DNA from: Herbinix sp.
Lineage (GTDB): Bacteria; Bacillota; Clostridia; Lachnospirales; Lachnospiraceae
Assembly (NCBI GenBank): GCA_029238935.1
Contig: JAQZBN010000014.1
Coordinates: 1 to 64,000 of the forward strand
DNA length: 64,000 bases
Direction of reading: 5' to 3'
Under the pieces are notes generated by a model, which saw only the letters and a list, made by a program, of their open reading frames with translations, did no database searches and was not told where the DNA came from. The position numbers and the translations under genes were made by a program. The first letter of the stretch is position 1; each line of letters starts with the position of its first letter. Positions 36,677-48,750 of this stretch are shown here, in pieces.

Positions 36677-37225
36677 TTATTGCTCCATTTGTCTTCCTAA
36701 AAATGCAGCAGCTGTATTGGCCAGCTTTGCTTCCATTTCACCGAATTTTATCTTCGCATCTTTTGTCAGAATAATCACAGAGCCGATGGCATCACCTTCA
36801 CTGATAATAGGAAAAATTACTTGGTACGTAAATTCCGAATCGTCTTCATTCATAATCTTAACAAAATTTTTATCATCCTTACCTGCAATTACACTTTCTC
36901 TTTCATTAATTACTTCTTCCAGTTCGTGGCTGATCCCTTTTGTAATTAAATCTTTTTTGGTTGGACCAGCTGCTGCAATAAACATATCTTTATCTGTGAT
37001 TGCTATAATATGCCCTGTCGTCTGTGCAAGAGAATCTGCATATTGTTTCGCAAATTGTCCTAATTCACCGATCGGAGAATACTTCTTTAAGATAATTTCG
37101 CCTTCTCTATCCGTAAATATCTCTAATGGATCGCCTTCTCTAATTCGCAAAGTACGTCTAATTTCCTTTGGAACTACAACTCGACCAAGGTCATCTATTC
37201 TTCTTACTATACCGGTTGCTTTCAT
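36677..37225 (-). CDS. spoVT: Stage V sporulation protein T (AbrB-type regulator)
   Basis: Forespore transcription factor that tunes sigma-G genes. The N-terminal swapped-hairpin AbrB domain (MKATGIVRRIDDLGRVVVPK, then RTLRIREGDPLEIF) precedes a GAF domain (about 55-180). The frame opens six codons earlier, but GGAGG lies within those codons and the ATG at 37225 gives 182 aa, starting exactly like B. subtilis SpoVT. It is the upstream end of the conserved sporulation cluster. Confidence 0.96.
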   Translation of the reverse strand: MKATGIVRRIDDLGRVVVPKEIRRTLRIREGDPLEIFTDREGEIILKKYSPIGELGQFAKQYADSLAQTTGHIIAITDKDMFIAAAGPTKKDLITKGISHELEEVINERESVIAGKDDKNFVKIMNEDDSEFTYQVIFPIISEGDAIGSVIILTKDAKIKFGEMEAKLANTAAAFLGRQMEQ

Positions 37226-37383
37226 ATAATGATCTTCCTCCATTTTAAGTAGTATTTAATAAGTAATGATGTGTTAAAAGATTTTACCTAATACTATTGT
37301 TTGTAAAATGGGAAAGTTTATACATTTATTTTATATGAAATTTTAAAAGTATAGTTTTTTGTTCCAAAAACATTATAGAATTA

Positions 37384-39105
37384 TTATACACTCTCAGAAT
37401 CTAATCTTAACATATTAAATACATTATAAAGATCAACAATTCCATATCCCCATTCTCTGTTAGGATATCGAAAATTTACATTTCTTCTGGCTCCGCGTAT
37501 TAAAAATTTTTTTATTTCTATGGTATCAATACCAGGATAATTCGCACGGACAATACCCCATTCCAAAACCAATGCGGCTATTCCGGTCATATGTGCGGCA
37601 GCAACACTGGTTCCAGTCGCATTGGCATAGCCTTGTGTCAGGTTTGGCGCTGATACATTGACCCCCGGTGCTGCTAATTCTGGTTTAATGGTATTAATTC
37701 TAGTATACCCCCTGCTGGAGTTAAGATACAAACTATCGTTGATGGTATTATAAGCAGTCGTAGTTATCGGTACTGGAGCATTTCCCGGAGATGTAATTGT
37801 AGTAAAGGGATCTGCTCGTATGAAAAATGTATCATTCGAGATAAAGCCTTCCATAGGCAGCCAAATATGAAAAGATGTTGTTAAGTCTCCTCTTCCATTT
37901 ACTTGAAAACGCCATACACCAGGGGTTGGATTTCGAAATCTCATTAGGATTAGCTGGTCCCCTGTCTGCGATTCGACCATCTGGTAATCAACATTAATTA
38001 TTGTTTGCTCAAAGATAAAAGATATTTCTCTATTTACTTGAATACTTTCAACAATTCTTGGTATGTATTCACCGGAAGGCGACAAAATATCGATCGAATA
38101 TGATCCTGGAGCTGCTCCCCATAGTTCCATAGAAAAGCCCGGCACATTTTCTCCAACATTTAACTCCACCGTATCATAACCTACGGCAGGATCAATCTGA
38201 CCGAAATAATGCCTTCTTCCATTTCCTTCATTGCCGGCCGACGTCACCATAGCAATTCCTGAGAAGTCGCCGACCAGAGACATGAGCGAGCTTAACGCTC
38301 CTCTTCCGTCATGAGGTCCCTGGGAACTTCCCAGTCCGACACAGACCGCAATCGGTCGTCTTAACCTCCTTGAGACCGAAACCATATACTGTACTGCCCA
38401 CATAATATCATTTTCCTGATAGCAGATAGCGTTTTCCGGTATTACAAAAAAGTTTCGTATTGTTGGCTTCGCTTGCTTTAACTTTACGATCACAAGTTCG
38501 GAATCCGGTGCTACACCATAAAAATCATTCTGAGGATCTTCGGAACCGGCAGCTATTCCTGCTACGATAGTTCCATGACCAATCTCATCTGTACTGGGTA
38601 CAACCTCCAGCGGATTCTCAGAAGCTAATGCCTGATTAATCTGATCCGCTGTATATTCTGTCCCATAAAAGGTAGGAAACGGCCCATCCGGATAAGCCTC
38701 CGCACTATCAATGGTCTGGTCCCAAATAGATACAATACGGGTGGTCCCATCCGCATGCCGAAAGATCGGATTCGTATAATCAATTCCAGTATCAATGACC
38801 CCAACCAAAACCCCTTCTCCCCTTAAGTTAAAGGCTGGTATGTTACGAAGTCTCGTTATTCCGGAAGCTTCCAGGCTGGCTATACTGGTTAATCCGAAAC
38901 ATCTCGGTAACGCACTATATCCAAAAACAGCAACTGCACGATTTGTAATTTGCGCATTCGGTACATAAACGATAGCAGTTAATTCATTCAGTACATGGAC
39001 GATACCGTTTTGAAACCTGTCTAGTATAGCTTCATTGCCATAATATTCAATTATCAAATCCGAATAATCATTACTTACAATAACACCCTTCTCTTCCTGG
39101 GTCAT
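37384..39105 (-). CDS. Csp-like subtilase, type A copy 1 (S8 family)
   Basis: Subtilisin-like protease of 573 aa with an intact triad: D105 (VGVIDTGIDY), H177 (IGHGTIVAG) and S500 (GTSVAAAH), plus oxyanion N292 (SAGNEG). The first ~90 residues look like the short prodomain of Csp proteases, and residues ~305-430 form an insert (YDTVELNVGEN...SIDILSPSGEY) like the jelly-roll domain of clostridial CspB. There is no signal peptide, which suits a spore protein made in the mother cell. Csp proteins activate the cortex hydrolase SleC or sense germinants in clostridia; the role here is inferred. It is last in the four-gene tandem. No strong ribosome binding site lies before the ATG. Confidence 0.85.
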   Translation of the reverse strand: MTQEEKGVIVSNDYSDLIIEYYGNEAILDRFQNGIVHVLNELTAIVYVPNAQITNRAVAVFGYSALPRCFGLTSIASLEASGITRLRNIPAFNLRGEGVLVGVIDTGIDYTNPIFRHADGTTRIVSIWDQTIDSAEAYPDGPFPTFYGTEYTADQINQALASENPLEVVPSTDEIGHGTIVAGIAAGSEDPQNDFYGVAPDSELVIVKLKQAKPTIRNFFVIPENAICYQENDIMWAVQYMVSVSRRLRRPIAVCVGLGSSQGPHDGRGALSSLMSLVGDFSGIAMVTSAGNEGNGRRHYFGQIDPAVGYDTVELNVGENVPGFSMELWGAAPGSYSIDILSPSGEYIPRIVESIQVNREISFIFEQTIINVDYQMVESQTGDQLILMRFRNPTPGVWRFQVNGRGDLTTSFHIWLPMEGFISNDTFFIRADPFTTITSPGNAPVPITTTAYNTINDSLYLNSSRGYTRINTIKPELAAPGVNVSAPNLTQGYANATGTSVAAAHMTGIAALVLEWGIVRANYPGIDTIEIKKFLIRGARRNVNFRYPNREWGYGIVDLYNVFNMLRLDSESV

Positions 39106-39132
39106 GAATAATAACCATGCCTTTCTTTATAG

Positions 39133-39152
39133 CCTGCGACTTTGGTCGCAGG
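39133..39152 (-). terminator. Short hairpin between subtilase genes
   Basis: CCTGCGAC / GTCGCAGG stem of 8 bp with a 4-nt loop lies 8 bp past the stop of the preceding gene. There is no T-run, so it may only attenuate or stabilise the mRNA. Confidence 0.45.
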
Positions 39153-39160
39153 TATAATAT

Positions 39161-40867
39161 TTAACTTCCTATGCCTCGGCGAAGACTTTCAAATATGTTA
39201 TAAACATCTAAAATACCATATCCCCAATCTCTGTTTGGATACTCAATGTTAACATCCCTTCTTGCACCTCGAATCATTAGCTTTTTAACATCCAGGGTAT
39301 CTATCGTTCGTAAATTTCCCCTCACAATACCCCATTCCAGCAGCATAGCAGCAACCCCCGTAGTATGAGCGGTTGCTACACTCGTTCCAGATGTTAGTGC
39401 AAATCCTTGATCTAACGTAGGTGTAACAATATTTACACCAGGAGCAGCTATATCCGGTTTCACATCTCCGAGACGGGTATATCCTCGGCTGGCACTCTGG
39501 AACAAACTGTCATCCAGATAATTATAAGCAGTAGCTGTAATGGGAACATTCGCATTACCTATGGATAATACCGTTGTATAGGGATTTGATCGAATGAAAT
39601 AAGTACTATCTGAGATGAAGCTCTCCATAGGTAACCAGACATGAAATCCCAGACTCAAATCGCCTCTCCCATATACATTGAACCTCCAGATTCCAGCACT
39701 GGGATTCAAAAATCGCACAAGAATTAGTTGATCTCCACTCTGCGATTCCACCATCTGGTAGTCCACCGAAATTGTAGTCTGCTCAAATACAAAGGATATA
39801 TCTCTATTTTCATCCAGTCTTGCGGCAATTCTTGGAACATATTCACCGGATGGAGATAACAGATCAATTGAAAAAGTACTGGGTGACTCACCCCAAATCT
39901 CCATGGAGAATCCATATTCGTTTTCTCCCACATTCAGCTCCACGGTATCATAACCCACAGTGGTATCTACGGTTCCATAATAATGTCTACGGTCATTTCC
40001 TTCATTTCCAGCTGCTATCACCATAGCAACTCCCGTTATTCCTGCTTGCAGCGACAAATAGCTGCTTAAGGTTCCACGTCCATCATGAGCCCCTTGGGAA
40101 CTTCCTAGTCCAAGGCAAATTGCGATCGGCCTTTGCAACTCAAAGGATAGATTGATTAAATACTCCACTCCATGCAAAATATCATTCTCTTGAAAGCAGA
40201 TTGCTGTCTCCGGTATTCGGAAGAATTGTTTCAGATAAGTTTTCGCCGGTTTCAGCTTAACAATTGCTAATTCGGCATTGGGAGCTACTCCATAGAAGTC
40301 ACTGTCAGAAACTTCATTCCCCGCTGCTACGCCAGCAAGCATGGTACCGTGTCCCACCTCATCCCGGGACGGAACAATCTCAAAGGGAGTTTCGCTTTGC
40401 AACGCCTCATTGATTTGTTCTCTGGAGTATTGTGTTCCATAAAACGCCAGCGGTGGAAAGTTTTCACTATCAATCGTCTGATCCCATATCGAAATGATCT
40501 TTGTGGTATTATCTGCATTTTTAAAAATAGGATTGGTGTAATCGATTCCTGTATCAATAATTCCAATCATTACACCTTGCCCTCGCAGATCAAAATTTGG
40601 TATATTTCGTATTCTAATAATCCCCGAAGCTTCCAGGCTGGCTTCACTCACCAATCCATAGCAGATTGGCATCACAGAGTATCCCAATTCAAGGATGGTT
40701 CTATCCGTGATCTGACTTACCGGAACGTGAACGATGGCATTTTGAAAATTTATAATATGCACGGTTGCATCCGTAAATTGATCAAAAACTGACTGATCAC
40801 CATTGTAAGCAATGATTAAATCAGCATAATCATTACTGGTTATTCTTGCTCTTTCTTCCGGTGTCAT
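39161..40867 (-). CDS. Csp-like subtilase, type B copy 1 (S8 family)
   Basis: About 568 aa. The triad is intact: Asp in IGIIDTGIDY, His in VGHGTMLAG and Ser in SGTSVATAH, with AAGNEG for the oxyanion hole. It shares type B markers with the gene at 42675-44381: LGYSVMP near residue 60, PAKTYLKQFFRIPETAIC in the core, SPSTFSIDLLSPSGEY in the insert, and the ending RRGIG. The frame opens at a TTG two codons earlier, but AGAAGG is spaced for the ATG at 40867. A sigma-E-like promoter lies upstream. Confidence 0.85.
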   Translation of the reverse strand: MTPEERARITSNDYADLIIAYNGDQSVFDQFTDATVHIINFQNAIVHVPVSQITDRTILELGYSVMPICYGLVSEASLEASGIIRIRNIPNFDLRGQGVMIGIIDTGIDYTNPIFKNADNTTKIISIWDQTIDSENFPPLAFYGTQYSREQINEALQSETPFEIVPSRDEVGHGTMLAGVAAGNEVSDSDFYGVAPNAELAIVKLKPAKTYLKQFFRIPETAICFQENDILHGVEYLINLSFELQRPIAICLGLGSSQGAHDGRGTLSSYLSLQAGITGVAMVIAAGNEGNDRRHYYGTVDTTVGYDTVELNVGENEYGFSMEIWGESPSTFSIDLLSPSGEYVPRIAARLDENRDISFVFEQTTISVDYQMVESQSGDQLILVRFLNPSAGIWRFNVYGRGDLSLGFHVWLPMESFISDSTYFIRSNPYTTVLSIGNANVPITATAYNYLDDSLFQSASRGYTRLGDVKPDIAAPGVNIVTPTLDQGFALTSGTSVATAHTTGVAAMLLEWGIVRGNLRTIDTLDVKKLMIRGARRDVNIEYPNRDWGYGILDVYNIFESLRRGIGS

Positions 40868-40897
40868 AGGCAACCTTCTCTCTAAGGATCTTATTAC

Positions 40898-40927
40898 TAT
40901 ATATATTATTCCTTATGTAAAATATGA
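40898..40927 (-). promoter_or_regulatory. Possible sigma-E-like promoter of the second subtilase pair
   Basis: TCATATT (a full match to the sigma-E -35 kmATATT), a 15-bp spacer and TATATATA. The -10 is a weak match. The arrangement copies that at 44488-44516. Confidence 0.3.
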
Positions 40928-40936
40928 GTACGCATA

Positions 40937-40963
40937 AAACAGGTGATGAAACCATCACCTGTT
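40937..40963 (-). terminator. Terminator overlapping the end of the type A copy 2 subtilase
   Basis: AAACAGGTGAT / ATCACCTGTTT stem of 11 bp with a 6-nt loop, followed by TTAT on the minus strand. The stop codon (40955-40957) lies within the stem. Confidence 0.7.
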
Positions 40964-42664
40964 TGTACCTGCTCTCAATATATTAAAAGCGTTATAAATA
41001 TCAAGCATTCCATATCCCCAGTCTTTATTTGGATATTTAAGACTAACGCTTCTTCTTGCACCTCGAATTAAAAATTTCTTAGCTTCAATTGTTGAAGTAC
41101 CCGGATAGTTTTCTCTTACAACCCCCCATTCCAAAATCATTGCGGTAATTCCAGCTGTATGGGCGGCGGCTGCACTTGTTCCAGTAACCATTTCAAAGCC
41201 TTGTGCTAAATTGGGACTTAGTATATTAACACCGGGGGCTACCAGGCTAGGTACTACCTGGTTAATCCTGGTATACCCTTTTCCAGAAGCCTGGTATAGC
41301 GTTTCATTCAATGGATTATAGGCGGTAACAGTAATTGGAACTAATGCATTTCCGGGATTCGTTATGGTTGTATATGGATTTGCTTGAAGAAAATAAGTAT
41401 CACTTGATATAAAGGGTCCTACCGGGAGCCATATATGAAAACTTAATGGTATATCTCCTCTTCCAAATACCGTAAAGTTCCATACCCCAGGTGAAGGATT
41501 TTGAAATCGCATAAGAATTAACTGATCACCGGTGTTGGCTTCTACTGCAATATAATCAACAAAAATCACCGTCGTTTCAAATACAAAATTTATCTCCCGA
41601 TTTGCGATTAAACTATCCTCAATCCTGGGTACTCTTTCCCCGCTGGGTGATGCAATTTCGATACTATATATTCCAGGGGCAGCACCCCATAATTCCATGG
41701 TAAATCCCGGTGTATTTTCACCCACATTAAGTTCCACATTCGTGTATCCTATCGATTGGTCAATCGTATTATAGAAATGTCTTCTGGTATTTCCTTCATT
41801 TCCACCGGCAACTGTGACTGCCACACCGGGAATACTTCCTGCCACGTTGATATAATCAGATAAATAATCTCTGCCGTCATGGGAACCTTGGGAAGTGCCA
41901 AGACCTATACAAATTGCCAGAGGCCTCTCGAACTGAAATGATAAGGAAACCAAATACTGCATTGCCCACATAATATCATTTTCCTGATAACAAGGGACAT
42001 CCATGGGAATAGAATAAAATTCACGAAGTAAAGCTTTTGCTTGCTTTAGCTTTACAACTACGATGTCAGAATCTGGTGCAACACCACTGAAATTATTAGC
42101 ATCATCTTCTGACCCTGCAGCAATTCCAGCCATCATCGTCCCATGACCTATCTCATCCCGACTAGGCACTATATCATACGGATTCTCACTTTGCAGTGCC
42201 AGATTGATTTGTTCCGCATCATATACCGTACCATAGAACATACCTTCCGGATAGCGGTCTTCACTGTCTATCGTCTGATCCCAGATTGCAAGGATTTTAC
42301 TCGTACCATCTGCTCTACGAAAGATAGGGTTAGTATAATCAATTCCCGTATCTATGATTCCTACCATAACTCCACTTCCTCTTAAGTTAAAGATCGGAGT
42401 ATTTCGAATCCGAATAACACCGGATTCATCCAAGCTTCGCTGGCTCAGCAAGGCATAGCCGTTAGGGAATGCTGTATAACCAAAAGTACTTATAGCATGC
42501 TCGTTAATCTCTTGATTTGGTACATAGACAATTGCATATCTATCATTCATTATTTGAACTGTATTTGGCTGAAACTGATTCAGAATAAATTGATTCTCAT
42601 TATAAGCAATGATTAAATCTGCAAAATCATTACTCGTAATCTTATACCTTTCTTCCGGCGTCAT
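40955..42664 (-). CDS. Csp-like subtilase, type A copy 2 (S8 family)
   Basis: About 569 aa with an intact triad: Asp in VGIIDTGIDY, His in IGHGTMMAG and Ser in TGTSAAAAH. Type A markers shared with the gene at 37384-39105 are FGY near residue 60, CYQENDIMWA in the core, ELWGAAPG in the insert, and TIEAKKFLIRGARR near the end. The frame opens seven codons earlier inside the previous gene, but AGGGGGAAGG places the start at the ATG at 42664, 10 bp after the stop of the preceding gene. That tight spacing indicates one transcript for this type B-type A pair. Confidence 0.85.
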   Translation of the reverse strand: MTPEERYKITSNDFADLIIAYNENQFILNQFQPNTVQIMNDRYAIVYVPNQEINEHAISTFGYTAFPNGYALLSQRSLDESGVIRIRNTPIFNLRGSGVMVGIIDTGIDYTNPIFRRADGTSKILAIWDQTIDSEDRYPEGMFYGTVYDAEQINLALQSENPYDIVPSRDEIGHGTMMAGIAAGSEDDANNFSGVAPDSDIVVVKLKQAKALLREFYSIPMDVPCYQENDIMWAMQYLVSLSFQFERPLAICIGLGTSQGSHDGRDYLSDYINVAGSIPGVAVTVAGGNEGNTRRHFYNTIDQSIGYTNVELNVGENTPGFTMELWGAAPGIYSIEIASPSGERVPRIEDSLIANREINFVFETTVIFVDYIAVEANTGDQLILMRFQNPSPGVWNFTVFGRGDIPLSFHIWLPVGPFISSDTYFLQANPYTTITNPGNALVPITVTAYNPLNETLYQASGKGYTRINQVVPSLVAPGVNILSPNLAQGFEMVTGTSAAAAHTAGITAMILEWGVVRENYPGTSTIEAKKFLIRGARRSVSLKYPNKDWGYGMLDIYNAFNILRAGTNR

Positions 42665-42674
42665 GGCCTTCCCC

Positions 42675-44381
42675 CTAATCTCCAATTCCTCTTCTTAACG
42701 TCTCAAATATGTTAAATACATCTAAAATTCCATAACCCCAATTCATATTCGGATATTGCGTATCACTATCTCTTCTGGCTCCTCTTATAATTAAGTTCTT
42801 CATGTTCAAGGTATTCATATTAGGAAAATTATTTCGTAGGATTCCCCACTCTAATAATATTGCCGCTACTCCTGTTGTATGTGCTGCGGCCGCACTGGTT
42901 CCTGTAACCAGTGAAAATCCTCCATCCAGCGATGGCGCTAGAATATCGACACCCGGTGCTGCAAAATCAGGTTTCACCAATCCTATTCTTGTATATCCTC
43001 TACTCGCTGCAGTATATAAACTATCATCCTCTACATTGTAAGCAGTTACCGTCATCGGAACAAACGCGTTTCCCAAAGATAAAATAGTAGTATAGGGGTT
43101 GGAACTGATAAAAAAGGTATTATCAGAGATAAAGCCTGCCATCGGAAGCCAGATATGAAAACCTAACTGTATATCTCCCCTTGTATAAACCCCAAATCTC
43201 CAGATCCCCGGAGTTGGATTACGAAAGCGGATTAAAATCAACTGGTCACCGCTTTGCGATTCTATCATTTGGTAATCTACAAAAATAACCGTCTGCTCAA
43301 AAACAAAAGTAATCTCACGGCTTTCATCCAGACTGATTGCAATTCTTGGTACATATTCACCTGTAGGCGTTAGAATATCAATGGAAAAGGTGCTTGGTGA
43401 ATCACCCCAAAGTTCCATGGAAAATCCTTGTTCATTTTCACCAATATTTAGTTCCACCGTATCATATCCGATCGCTGGATCGACAACTCCATAATAGTGC
43501 CTTCTTGCACTTCCTTCATTCCCTGCAGCAACAGCAATGGATACACCCACAAACTCTCCTTGATGTGATAAGAAACTGCTTAAGGTTCCTCTGCCATCGT
43601 GAGCTCCTTGGGATGTGCCTAAAGCAATACATATTGCAAGAGGTCTATTTAATTGATAGGCTACTTGAATAAGATACTCTATACCAAAGATAATATCATT
43701 TTCCTGATAGCATATGGCAGTTTCAGGAACTCTAAAAAAATTCTTTAGATAGGTTTTTGCCGGCTTTAATTTGACCACAACTAACTCTGCTTCGGGGGCA
43801 ACACCAAAAAAACCGCTCTCAGGAACATCCCTTCCAGCGGAAATGCCTGCAATCATCGTTCCATGGCCAACTTCGTCCGTTGTAGGAACTACCTCTAAGG
43901 GATTTTCTGTTTGCAATGCTTGATTTAATTGTTCTCTCGTATACTCGGTTCCATAATTTAACCCGGGAGGAGGAGTTTCACTTTGAATCGTTTGATCCCA
44001 TATGGAAACAATTTTCGTTGTTTTATCTTCATACTGAAATATAGGGTTGGTATAATCAATTCCGGTATCGATTATCCCAACCAGAACACCTTGCCCTCTC
44101 AAATTCAAGTTTGGGATATTACGTAATCGTATAATTCCAGAGGCCTCCAAACTTGCCGTACTTATGATACCAAACAGGGAAGGCATTACCGAATAACCCA
44201 GTTCTGCTACGATATTCTCCGTAATCCGCTCCACAGGTACATGAACTACCGCAGTAAAGAAGTTAATAATCTGAATCGTGGCGTCCCCAAATTCCTGAAG
44301 CCTTCTCTCATCTCCATAGTATCCAATCAGTAAATCTGCATATTCATTACTGGTAATTCTCTCTCTTTCCTGAGGTGTCAT
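42675..44381 (-). CDS. Csp-like subtilase, type B copy 2 (S8 family)
   Basis: 568 aa with an intact triad: Asp in VGIIDTGIDY, His in VGHGTMIAG and Ser in TGTSAAAAH. It is first in the tandem array. Type B markers LGYSVMP, PAKTYLKNFFRVPETAIC, SPSTFSIDILTPTGEY and terminal RRGIG match the copy at 39161-40867. AGGGGGAAGC precedes the ATG. No signal peptide is present. Like its paralogues it is probably a spore germination protease, but it could have another mother-cell role. Confidence 0.85.
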   Translation of the reverse strand: MTPQERERITSNEYADLLIGYYGDERRLQEFGDATIQIINFFTAVVHVPVERITENIVAELGYSVMPSLFGIISTASLEASGIIRLRNIPNLNLRGQGVLVGIIDTGIDYTNPIFQYEDKTTKIVSIWDQTIQSETPPPGLNYGTEYTREQLNQALQTENPLEVVPTTDEVGHGTMIAGISAGRDVPESGFFGVAPEAELVVVKLKPAKTYLKNFFRVPETAICYQENDIIFGIEYLIQVAYQLNRPLAICIALGTSQGAHDGRGTLSSFLSHQGEFVGVSIAVAAGNEGSARRHYYGVVDPAIGYDTVELNIGENEQGFSMELWGDSPSTFSIDILTPTGEYVPRIAISLDESREITFVFEQTVIFVDYQMIESQSGDQLILIRFRNPTPGIWRFGVYTRGDIQLGFHIWLPMAGFISDNTFFISSNPYTTILSLGNAFVPMTVTAYNVEDDSLYTAASRGYTRIGLVKPDFAAPGVDILAPSLDGGFSLVTGTSAAAAHTTGVAAILLEWGILRNNFPNMNTLNMKNLIIRGARRDSDTQYPNMNWGYGILDVFNIFETLRRGIGD

Positions 44382-46756: not shown

Positions 46757-47971
46757 CTAGGCATTAAACATAACCTTTTCGCTGTTAAATGCTCTTGTAA
46801 TCAGAGAGGTTACGATTAATGCTAAAACCGCAGTGGTACCTACCGTAAAACCAAATTGAGTCAAGGTAAGTTCACCCAACATAAGGTTTTGAATACTTGC
46901 AGAACTATTATAAACCGGAATAGCAAAATATTCGATTCCCTTTTCGGTTCCACCGGAGAACATTGTCATAATACTTCCAAGCATAACCAAGATCATCATT
47001 GGCATGATATAAGTGCTGGCTTCCTTTGAGGTTCTTGCCATAACGGCCATCAACGCTACCAACGCTACATACAGATATACAATCATAATCATTATCACCA
47101 GCAGCTGCAGCATCTCAACGAAGGTAAAGCTGATACTGATACCACCTAGTTCACCACCTGATAATCCACTAATTCCAATAACAACGGATACTGCATAGAT
47201 AACTGCAGATATACTGGATAAAATCGCAAGAGATATTAATTTACCAAAAACGATTTGACTTCTTTTGAGTGGTGTCAATAACATGCTGGAAAGAGTTCCT
47301 CTTTCCTTCTCACCGGTGATTGCATCTACACCAAGTCCCATGGCTCCGGAGAATAACATAATATTAATTAAGAAAGGAAGGAGCATAGAGAGCATCTTTC
47401 CATCAGCCTTTTCCGGGTCCACGATCACAGAGGATTCCGGATCTTTATCAATATAAAATACTTGTAACTGTTCCATATTACCAAGGCGTTCTGACAATAG
47501 ATTTTGCTGATAAACTCCAAGCACATTGGTTACAAAGTTATTTCTTGCAGCATTGGAGTAGTCCTCCGCTGTATTATAGTAGGTCTTAACCTCAGGAATT
47601 GCATCACCTTGGTTCGCATAAGCATTGATCGTATCACGGAACCCTTCTTCAAATACGACTAATAAATCCACGGATCCGTCCAAGATTCCATCTTTTAATT
47701 GATCTGTAGTATCCTGCGCGGTTAAATAAGTAATTTCCGCTTGAAAACCGGTTGCCTTAATTGTAGCATCTAAATCCTCTGGTGCATTCTGTATGTATAC
47801 CGTAGGGATATTCTTCTCGATGTCTTGTTCCATATTATTCATCAACTGACCCATTAAGGAATACATTGCAATAATCATAACTCCCGGCAGGATGAATAAG
47901 CTAAAGATTAACTTCTTATCGGTAAATACTCTCGTTAATTCTTTGATTACGATATGTTTTGTGCCATTCAT
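46757..47971 (-). CDS. natB: ABC-2 type permease (NatB-like)
   Basis: Membrane subunit of an ABC exporter, 404 aa. One N-terminal helix, a large extracellular domain (about 45-185), and five to six C-terminal helices with the motif GEKERGTLSSMLLTP match the NatB/YhgE-like ABC-2 group. NatAB of B. subtilis extrudes sodium, but related exporters carry other substrates. GAAGGAGG precedes the ATG, which lies 2 bp past the ATPase gene. Confidence 0.8.
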   Translation of the reverse strand: MNGTKHIVIKELTRVFTDKKLIFSLFILPGVMIIAMYSLMGQLMNNMEQDIEKNIPTVYIQNAPEDLDATIKATGFQAEITYLTAQDTTDQLKDGILDGSVDLLVVFEEGFRDTINAYANQGDAIPEVKTYYNTAEDYSNAARNNFVTNVLGVYQQNLLSERLGNMEQLQVFYIDKDPESSVIVDPEKADGKMLSMLLPFLINIMLFSGAMGLGVDAITGEKERGTLSSMLLTPLKRSQIVFGKLISLAILSSISAVIYAVSVVIGISGLSGGELGGISISFTFVEMLQLLVIMIMIVYLYVALVALMAVMARTSKEASTYIMPMMILVMLGSIMTMFSGGTEKGIEYFAIPVYNSSASIQNLMLGELTLTQFGFTVGTTAVLALIVTSLITRAFNSEKVMFNA

Positions 47972-47973
47972 AA

Positions 47974-48750
47974 TTATGCTTCCTCCTTCATATTCAATTT
48001 ATATAATTCAAAGAAGGCATCTTCTAAATCGCTGGTATTTGTATTCTTAAGTATCTCTGCCAGAGTACCATCCATAACCTTAACACCATTAATAATGATA
48101 CCAATACGATCGCAAAGCTTTTCAGCCTCAGACATAATATGAGTAGAGATAATTACAGTCTTTCCTTCTTCTTTTAATAATTTTAAATAATCAGTTACAT
48201 TTCTGGCTGTGACAATATCAAGACCATTGGTAGGTTCGTCAAAAATTACTACATCAGGATCATGAACCAAACTAACGGCAATGGAAGCCTTCTGCTTCAT
48301 ACCGGTGGAAAGTTCTTCAATTTTCTTGTTTTCAAATGCTTTAATATCAAAGTGACTAAATAATTTCTCACGTCTTGCATCGATCGTCTTCTCATCGAGT
48401 CCATGAAGCTTTCCAAAGAAATTAAACATATACTTCGGAGAAAATTGCGGGTCTAATTTGATTTCGTTGGTTAAGAAGCTAATACTCTTTCGAACATTTT
48501 CCGAATCCGTTACTGTATCAAACCCACAAACCGTAACCTTTCCCCCGGTCGGTTTTAGTAATGTTGCGATACAACGAAGTGCCGTTGTTTTTCCGGCACC
48601 GTTTGGTCCCAATAGACCATAGATTTGTCCCGGTGCTGCTGTCAGACTAACATGATCTACTGCTTTTTTCATATTCTTTTTTGTCTTTTGCTCTGTCATT
48701 TGCTTTTTGGACAGTTTATAGACCTTTGTTAAATCATTTAAGATTATCAT
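47974..48750 (-). CDS. natA: ABC transporter ATP-binding protein (NatA-like)
   Basis: ATPase of 258 aa. Walker A is LLGPNGAGKTT, the signature LSTGMKQK, Walker B VVIFDEPTNGLD, and the H-loop STHIMSEAE. All are intact. AGGTGGG precedes the ATG. It pairs with the permease immediately downstream; the operon ends at the 46686-46716 terminator. Confidence 0.85.
   Translation of the reverse strand: MIILNDLTKVYKLSKKQMTEQKTKKNMKKAVDHVSLTAAPGQIYGLLGPNGAGKTTALRCIATLLKPTGGKVTVCGFDTVTDSENVRKSISFLTNEIKLDPQFSPKYMFNFFGKLHGLDEKTIDARREKLFSHFDIKAFENKKIEELSTGMKQKASIAVSLVHDPDVVIFDEPTNGLDIVTARNVTDYLKLLKEEGKTVIISTHIMSEAEKLCDRIGIIINGVKVMDGTLAEILKNTNTSDLEDAFFELYKLNMKEEA

Follow-up and report, generated by a model that had tools for sequence, protein, structure and literature searches.

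Tandem Csp-like subtilase genes of Herbinix sp., probably two copies of a two-protease germination module whose second member is repeatedly inactive in relatives

Csp subtilases have been linked to the cleavage of SleC in Clostridium perfringens and Clostridioides difficile (PMC3567191, PMC6636752; here and below, literature statements are those of the accessible parts of the cited papers). A heterodimer of two Csps passes germinant signals to CspB in C. difficile (PMC12880746), and protease state varies among Peptostreptococcaceae (PMC6199464, citing Kevorkian 2016). Clostridiaceae and Lachnospiraceae are described as having exclusively intact-triad Csps, the CspBA fusion and the pseudoproteases appearing unique to C. 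difficile/Peptostreptococcaceae (PMC6636752); Lachnospiraceae Csps are also called catalytically competent or predicted to be active elsewhere (PMC6021603, PMC12880746), and the accessible text of two papers treats Csp pseudoproteases for Peptostreptococcaceae only (PMC6199464, PMC11878537). Lachnospiraceae Csp pseudoproteases were not found in the titles and abstracts searched, a search whose coverage mostly excludes subscription journals. The stretch analysed here (64,000 nucleotides of contig JAQZBN010000014.1 from the lachnospiraceous Herbinix sp., hereafter the window) contains four tandem Csp-like subtilase genes, which are probably two copies of a two-protease module that helps spores wake. 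The family is known; judged from sequence, a partner that is repeatedly dead in Lachnospiraceae seems to be a variant of it not described before. As intact Csps of Lachnospiraceae have already been stated in print, the surprise lies in the dead copies found in relatives.

The segment 37384-44381 is occupied by four minus-strand frames of 568-576 aa each, transcribed in the order B2-A2-B1-A1 and named after two types, A and B, distinguished below (Table 1). All four products match the Pfam family Peptidase_S8 far above its curated cut-off, the match being split into two stretches by an insert in each of them, and all four retain the catalytic Asp, His and Ser together with the oxyanion Asn. The NCBIfam germination models CspBA and CspC also match the window proteins, below the narrow cut-offs of these models. 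The AlphaFold2 model of B2 (predicted local distance difference test 90.6, predicted template-modelling score 0.92) was aligned by Foldseek with the CspA, CspC and CspB crystal structures over 484-571 columns, with template-modelling scores of 0.74-0.87 on the query, well above those for other subtilases. It has a prodomain-like fold at about residues 1-75 and a strand-rich block at about 295-411 matching 4i0w, 6mw4 and 9pr8; as B2 follows the solved Csps over most of its length, both the prodomain and the jellyroll insert are considered present. The model of a dead A protein from Mobilitalea sibirica matches CspA, CspC and CspB in fold, too, and the best matches of both models are CspA chains. 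Frames, Pfam matches, triad residues and the B2 model agree with the original prediction of four tandem Csp-like subtilases in the order B-A-B-A with intact triads and an insert.

These features are shared with CspA, CspB and CspC of C. perfringens (CspB, 4i0w), which are likewise separate proteases with a prodomain, a jellyroll insert and an intact triad; moreover, SleC-like hydrolase genes are present in the Herbinix genome, and the B2 model matches 4i0w. Unlike the C. perfringens set, the Herbinix genes belong to a B-A pair duplicated at the genus level, with up to four pairs per genome read, in which A has repeatedly lost its Ser. The CspBA-CspC system of C. difficile and Paraclostridium bifermentans (9pr8, 6mw4) is similar in that an active Csp and pseudoprotease partners are encoded in a compact locus. 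This layout is not found in the window, where four genes of four are intact, but occurs in 24/52 pairs of the genus and in the pair on C107 of this genome. No CspB-CspA fusion was seen, the window genes being separate and two-domain frames being absent from the genus rows read. We take Roseburia, Blautia, Ruminococcus gnavus and Coprococcus to belong to the same family as Herbinix. Their Csps are likewise unfused (PMC3567191, legend of Fig S4). Two Csps fused in one frame of 1153-1197 aa, each with an intact triad, were observed only in other families of the order (G042, G049, G050 and G059; L239-L242).

A tree of 105 Csp rows, each at least 480 aa long and taken from named loci or this genome, separates the two types, with 30 rows in a B clade (Shimodaira-Hasegawa-like approximate likelihood ratio test, SH-aLRT, 97) and 31 rows in an A clade (SH-aLRT 98), so that A groups with A and B with B, as had been anticipated. 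Raw identity barely sets A1 apart, this protein being about equally near to B1 and A2 (B1-B2 69.4%, A1-B1 63.0%, A1-A2 62.0%, A1-B2 60.7%, B1-A2 58.3%, A2-B2 55.5%). Csp matches were found in 33/33 congeners searched, and 138 Csp rows were read from these, from this genome and from a small number of genomes outside the genus. The rows do not comprise every congener Csp match: singles of G011 (C285, C256), G023 (C69, C55) and G031 (C395), a distant third paralogue of the congeners, and matches unlisted in the congener search lie outside them. Frames shorter than 480 aa were dropped from the first triad set and stretches shorter than 300 aa from the congener set; a decayed copy of this genome (on C11) stands outside the trees, and the first, congener and named-strain triad sets overlap.

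The genus rows include 52 adjacent B-then-A pairs, with a median gap of 32.5 bp (range -4 to 91, for rule-chosen starts). Only two A-then-B neighbours occur, both at junctions within arrays, and eight further neighbouring couples include genes outside the A and B clades. B and A partners sit in matching subclades in 52/52 pairs, and distances between A rows correlate with those between their B partners (Mantel r 0.86), a value reached by 0 of 2000 within-genome partner shuffles (maximum 0.79). Pairs have therefore been copied as pairs, and the B-A pair is a genus-wide heritable unit, not special to the window. The proposal that an A-B pair was duplicated as a unit stands as far as the heritable pair is concerned; local duplication in the window was not confirmed. 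B1 and B2 group weakly (65/63), and A1 and A2 are not grouped in the best tree, a grouping that the approximately unbiased (AU) test does not reject (p-AU 0.24).

A one-to-one correspondence of A to CspA and of B to CspB was considered and rejected. For each of the four window proteins, the CspA half of the CspBA model gives the best score; B1 and A1, the two searched against PDB chains, are both closest to CspA chains; and relatives in other genera belong to neither clade. Given these shared best scores and the position of the other-genus relatives, the A/B split looks local to the group.

The two types differ in catalytic state. In the first set Asp-His-Ser is present in all B rows (30/30), and A rows read Asp-His-Ser (13/31) or Asp-His-Gly (18/31); 32 of 44 other Csps are intact, the remainder being Asp-His-Gly (9), Asp-Glu-Ser (2) and Asp-Gln-Ser (1). 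In the congener set the catalytic residue of B is Ser in 51/52 rows and Cys in one (two Ser rows lack the Asp/His region, the frame being cut at the contig end), and that of A is Ser in 29/53 and Gly in 24/53, Asp and His being kept in 53/53. By B/A state the 52 pairs are Ser/Ser (27), Ser/Gly (24) or Cys/Ser (1), and never Gly/Ser or Gly/Gly. C. difficile CspC likewise has Gly in place of the catalytic Ser (G485; PMC6636752) and, unlike the dead A copies, has also lost its His (T170). Other Lachnospiraceae Csps are published as catalytically competent, and many A copies in the genus rows are not. The suggestion that no member is a pseudo-protease thus holds for the four window genes and fails for the genome, in which the catalytic Ser of the A copy on C107 is replaced by Gly. 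At least one Ser-type Csp is kept in 34/34 genus genomes among the rows read. In seven named strains, 53 Csp frames (fewer than the Csp matches of these strains) comprise 39 Asp-His-Ser, 10 Asp-His-Gly, 2 Asp-Gln-Ser, 1 Asp-Glu-Ser and 1 Gly-His-Ser, with an intact Csp in every strain; Gly is read in 4/7 frames of Niameybacter massiliensis and in 0/7 of Mobilisporobacter senegalensis. As dead copies occur in named strains as well, they are not an artefact of metagenome assembly. In Anaerocolumna sp. MB42-C2 (L291, L292), the second gene of a pair has Gly for the catalytic Asp and a third gene has Gln for His.

The dead A genes are under purifying selection. Their ratio of nonsynonymous to synonymous substitution rates (dN/dS) is 0.13 for G024/G009 and 0.07 for G027/G031 (dS near saturation), with a third dead pair saturated; the respective B partners give 0.11 and 0.045. 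At least 10 Ser/Gly changes are required in the A clade on the full tree and at least 6 after branches with SH-aLRT below 95 are collapsed, and a reversible model of these states has a higher log-likelihood (-27.1) than irreversible loss (-31.4). The catalytic Ser codon is TCN in 13 A rows, all in one A clade (12 congeners and G028), and AGY in the remaining 16 A rows with Ser, as in all 51 B rows with Ser; TCN codons would be expected if some of these A genes had passed through a non-serine state. In G003 (L192, C6:90400-95100), the sole Cys-type B (TGT) is accompanied by an A with Ser, A being Gly in the two nearest relatives; roles have possibly been swapped within this pair.

On balance, we lean towards reading the B-A pair as a two-subunit Csp module acting on SleC-like targets, in which B is the obligatory protease and A a regulatory or stabilising partner that need not be catalytic. 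The CspC:CspA heterodimer, which relays signals to an active CspB, is the analogy that casts B as the active protease and A as the partner; SleC-like proteins are assumed as the substrate from the link between Csps and SleC cleavage cited above. B would fold with its prodomain, cleave it and keep it, and during germination would cut a SleC-like cortex hydrolase at its propeptide. A, a paralogue encoded by the following gene, probably binds B (or another A) through subtilase and jellyroll faces and may stabilise or gate it, its own catalysis being dispensable and apparently lost several times, always by Ser-to-Gly change within the A clade of the genus. The window would then hold two modules with a still-catalytic A and the rest of the genome two more, one of them with a dead A.

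Several observations weigh against this module. Positions strictly separating A from B are only two (427 and 437). The equivalents of C. difficile CspA R896, Q1094 and T1098 (assigned by eye to 329, 526 and 530 of B2) are mostly small, hydrophobic and Lys/Asn in both types, so that the interface hydrogen-bond network (R896-Q1094-T1098) is not conserved there in A or B and the B-A dimer is drawn from analogy only. Among the fetched rows, A is intact in a clade of 12 species and G028, and also in G011 and G023; loss of A catalysis is thus not general. Finally, in the four-gene arrays of G009, G017 and G030 (L199, L213, L230), the more divergent upstream pair has Gly in its first gene (3/3), with Ser in two second genes and Gly in one, contrary to the usual pattern of a live first and a dead second gene. 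The chief alternative, which we regard as rather unlikely, is that A and B are redundant independent proteases of the C. perfringens type, extra pairs adding dose and dead A copies being on their way to loss. It would account for Ser in both partners in the window and in 27/52 pairs, and the C. perfringens Csps have been called probably redundant (PMC6636752). However, decay should strike B like A, yet B keeps Ser almost throughout, and the Gly-type A rows retain Asp and His in every case at low dN/dS (about 0.07-0.13 in the two measurable comparisons).

The two-subunit module presupposes SleC-like targets, and the genome was found to contain two tandem SleC-like genes, as the original prediction had asked to be checked. 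Both match PG_binding_1 above the cut-off and PF08486 at 17.2 and 19.6 bits, below the cut-off of 23, and neither was matched by a SleC-specific model. We assume the SleC architecture to be a SpoIID-like catalytic region followed by a peptidoglycan-binding domain. SleC-like matches number 1-3 each in 31/33 congeners; in the other two, G026 (82% complete) and G032 (91%), pairs are present and no SleC match was found. A simple split, with one protease type per SleC copy, is disfavoured by G004 (99% complete) and G019 (96%), each of which has a B-A pair and a single SleC match. In G049, which has 22 csp matches, the SleC-like match (C15:64877-69824) is stop-interrupted and split by about 3.6 kb. 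The Herbinix genome also encodes a GerA-GerC-GerB-type receptor operon (C60) and a second GerA-type gene (C71). These receptors mean that the Csps need not sense the germinant, which fits an alternative role of the pairs in sporulation (coat or cortex assembly, or processing of other spore proteins) rather than in germination. The pairs without a SleC match in two congeners and the presumed spoVT-, yabP-, HU- and spoIIE-like genes beside or near the locus point the same way. We nevertheless find this improbable, as the nearest solved relatives are germination Csps and SleC-like genes were found in nearly all congeners.

The copy number of csp genes is high. The original prediction assumed that Clostridia usually keep one Csp set, which does not apply here: congeners have 3 to 11 Csp matches each and this genome has 13, fragments included. 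This genome holds four B-A pairs (two in the window, the others on C64 and C107), one unpaired copy on C14, a distant one on C18 (37% identity to B1) and the decayed one on C11 (L153:4262-5004), which lies between genes we presume to encode phosphotransferase-like and nucleotidyltransferase-like proteins. Directly beside the C64 pair there is a gene for what we take to be a large serine recombinase (L036:3923-5521), and recombinase-like frames also adjoin a pair of Anaeromicropila populeti (L072:4761-8822), hinting that some pairs travel on integrative elements. Across genomes, the number of Csp matches (counts including fragments) rises with genome size (Spearman 0.73, n=34; 0.78 in the 17 genomes at least 90% complete), as do SleC-like matches (rho 0.57), and GerA-type matches are flat (rho -0.07). 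A mostly mobile or neutral expansion, in which pairs spread by recombination and copy number merely tracks genome size, would suit this trend, the recombinase-like neighbours (2/66 named or own sources that were searched or served as query) and the decayed copy, but is very improbable in view of partner-specific co-inheritance, low dN/dS and the flat GerA-type counts, even though SleC-like genes rise too.

A more far-reaching version of the two-subunit module can be put forward only tentatively. The pair may be a germinant-gated protease:pseudoprotease heterodimer that evolved in Lachnospiraceae independently of that of C. difficile, with A catalysis repeatedly switched off, and probably on again, under selection for a structural role; pair repertoires, rather than extra Ger receptors, would then tune the germinant response in large-genome species.

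Table 1. Features of the csp locus in the window and SleC-like genes elsewhere in the genome
Feature	Position	Strand	Basis
B2, type-B Csp-like subtilase, first gene of pair 2	42675..44381	-	Open reading frame (ORF), Pfam, NCBIfam, triad, AlphaFold model with Foldseek
A2, type-A Csp-like subtilase, second gene of pair 2	40955..42664	-	ORF, Pfam, triad
A2-B1 gap, hairpin overlapping the A2 stop, then TTTT	40874..40954	-	Folding
B1, type-B Csp-like subtilase, first gene of pair 1	39161..40873	-	ORF, Pfam, PDB-chain search, triad
B1-A1 gap, stem-loop, no T-run on the minus strand	39106..39160	-	Folding of gap plus stop codon, -16.6 kcal/mol
A1, type-A Csp-like subtilase, second gene of pair 1, adjoins the spoVT-like gene	37384..39105	-	ORF, Pfam, PDB-chain search, triad
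spoVT-like regulator gene (presumed name)	36677..37243	-	ORF; only full-length match in the genome
ATP-binding cassette (ABC) transporter permease and ATPase genes (presumed names)	46757..48750	-	ORFs
Two tandem SleC-like genes, C149	L152 5077-6399, 6464-7792		Profile matches

The gaps between the window genes are 10, 81 and 55 bp in the order of transcription, the second becoming 87 bp if B1 starts at ATG 40867 instead of TTG 40873. For A2, an upstream TTG at 42685 is possible (frame 40955-42685), the ATG at 42664 being better placed after the Shine-Dalgarno-like GGGGAAGG. The hairpin and TTTT between A2 and B1 are possibly a weak terminator separating the two pairs, one absent from the terminator-scan list. 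The spoVT-like identity of the gene next to A1 and the names of the ABC genes are presumed. A spoVT-like gene lies beside csp genes in 14/58 named loci, a count limited by contigs that sometimes end too soon to show it. These 14 loci also carry genes that we take to be yabP-like (14), HU-like (14), spoIIE-like (10) and mazG-like (10), as well as the ABC pair (9), which stands on the opposite side of the csp locus from spoVT. A spoVT-like gene adjoins a csp pair in many congeners, too: the congener stretches include 27 spoVT-linked loci, 25 of which carry a pair of one lineage, the pair of the remaining two (G010, G021) falling outside the A and B clades. In the large tree both window pairs belong to another lineage than these 25, which suggests local replacement of pairs at the spoVT locus of the window (36677-44381); the AU test on a smaller set gives no confirmation, placement of A1 or B1 with the spoVT lineage not being rejected (p 0.46 and 0.50).

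The word CATACTT, which we liken to the -10 element of a sporulation sigma factor, occurs upstream of 16/52 B genes (17 sites no further than 200 nt away, of which 11 lie 51-63 nt ahead of the start). Of 43 upstream stretches of 120 nt, 12 contain it, where shuffled sequences would give 0.1; this excess is not independent evidence, the rows being related; the exact word was not found upstream of the B genes of the window. Consensus scans for sigma E, G, F, K and A upstream of B gave mean best scores that differed from those of shuffled sequences by no more than 0.4 (and were lower than these for F), and a sigma-70 scan found 30 sites against 29.5 expected.

The relatives that carry such pairs are mostly environmental anaerobes. 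The dead A copies correct a rule stated in print, namely that the Csps of Lachnospiraceae invariably keep an intact catalytic triad. It is an open question in germination, studied mainly in C. difficile, whether a Csp must itself be catalytic or serves as a regulatory subunit. Here, tens of close relatives outside the family of C. difficile have the same partner gene either alive or dead, which makes the role of a dead partner accessible to comparison, and cultured strains such as Mobilitalea sibirica allow it to be tested.

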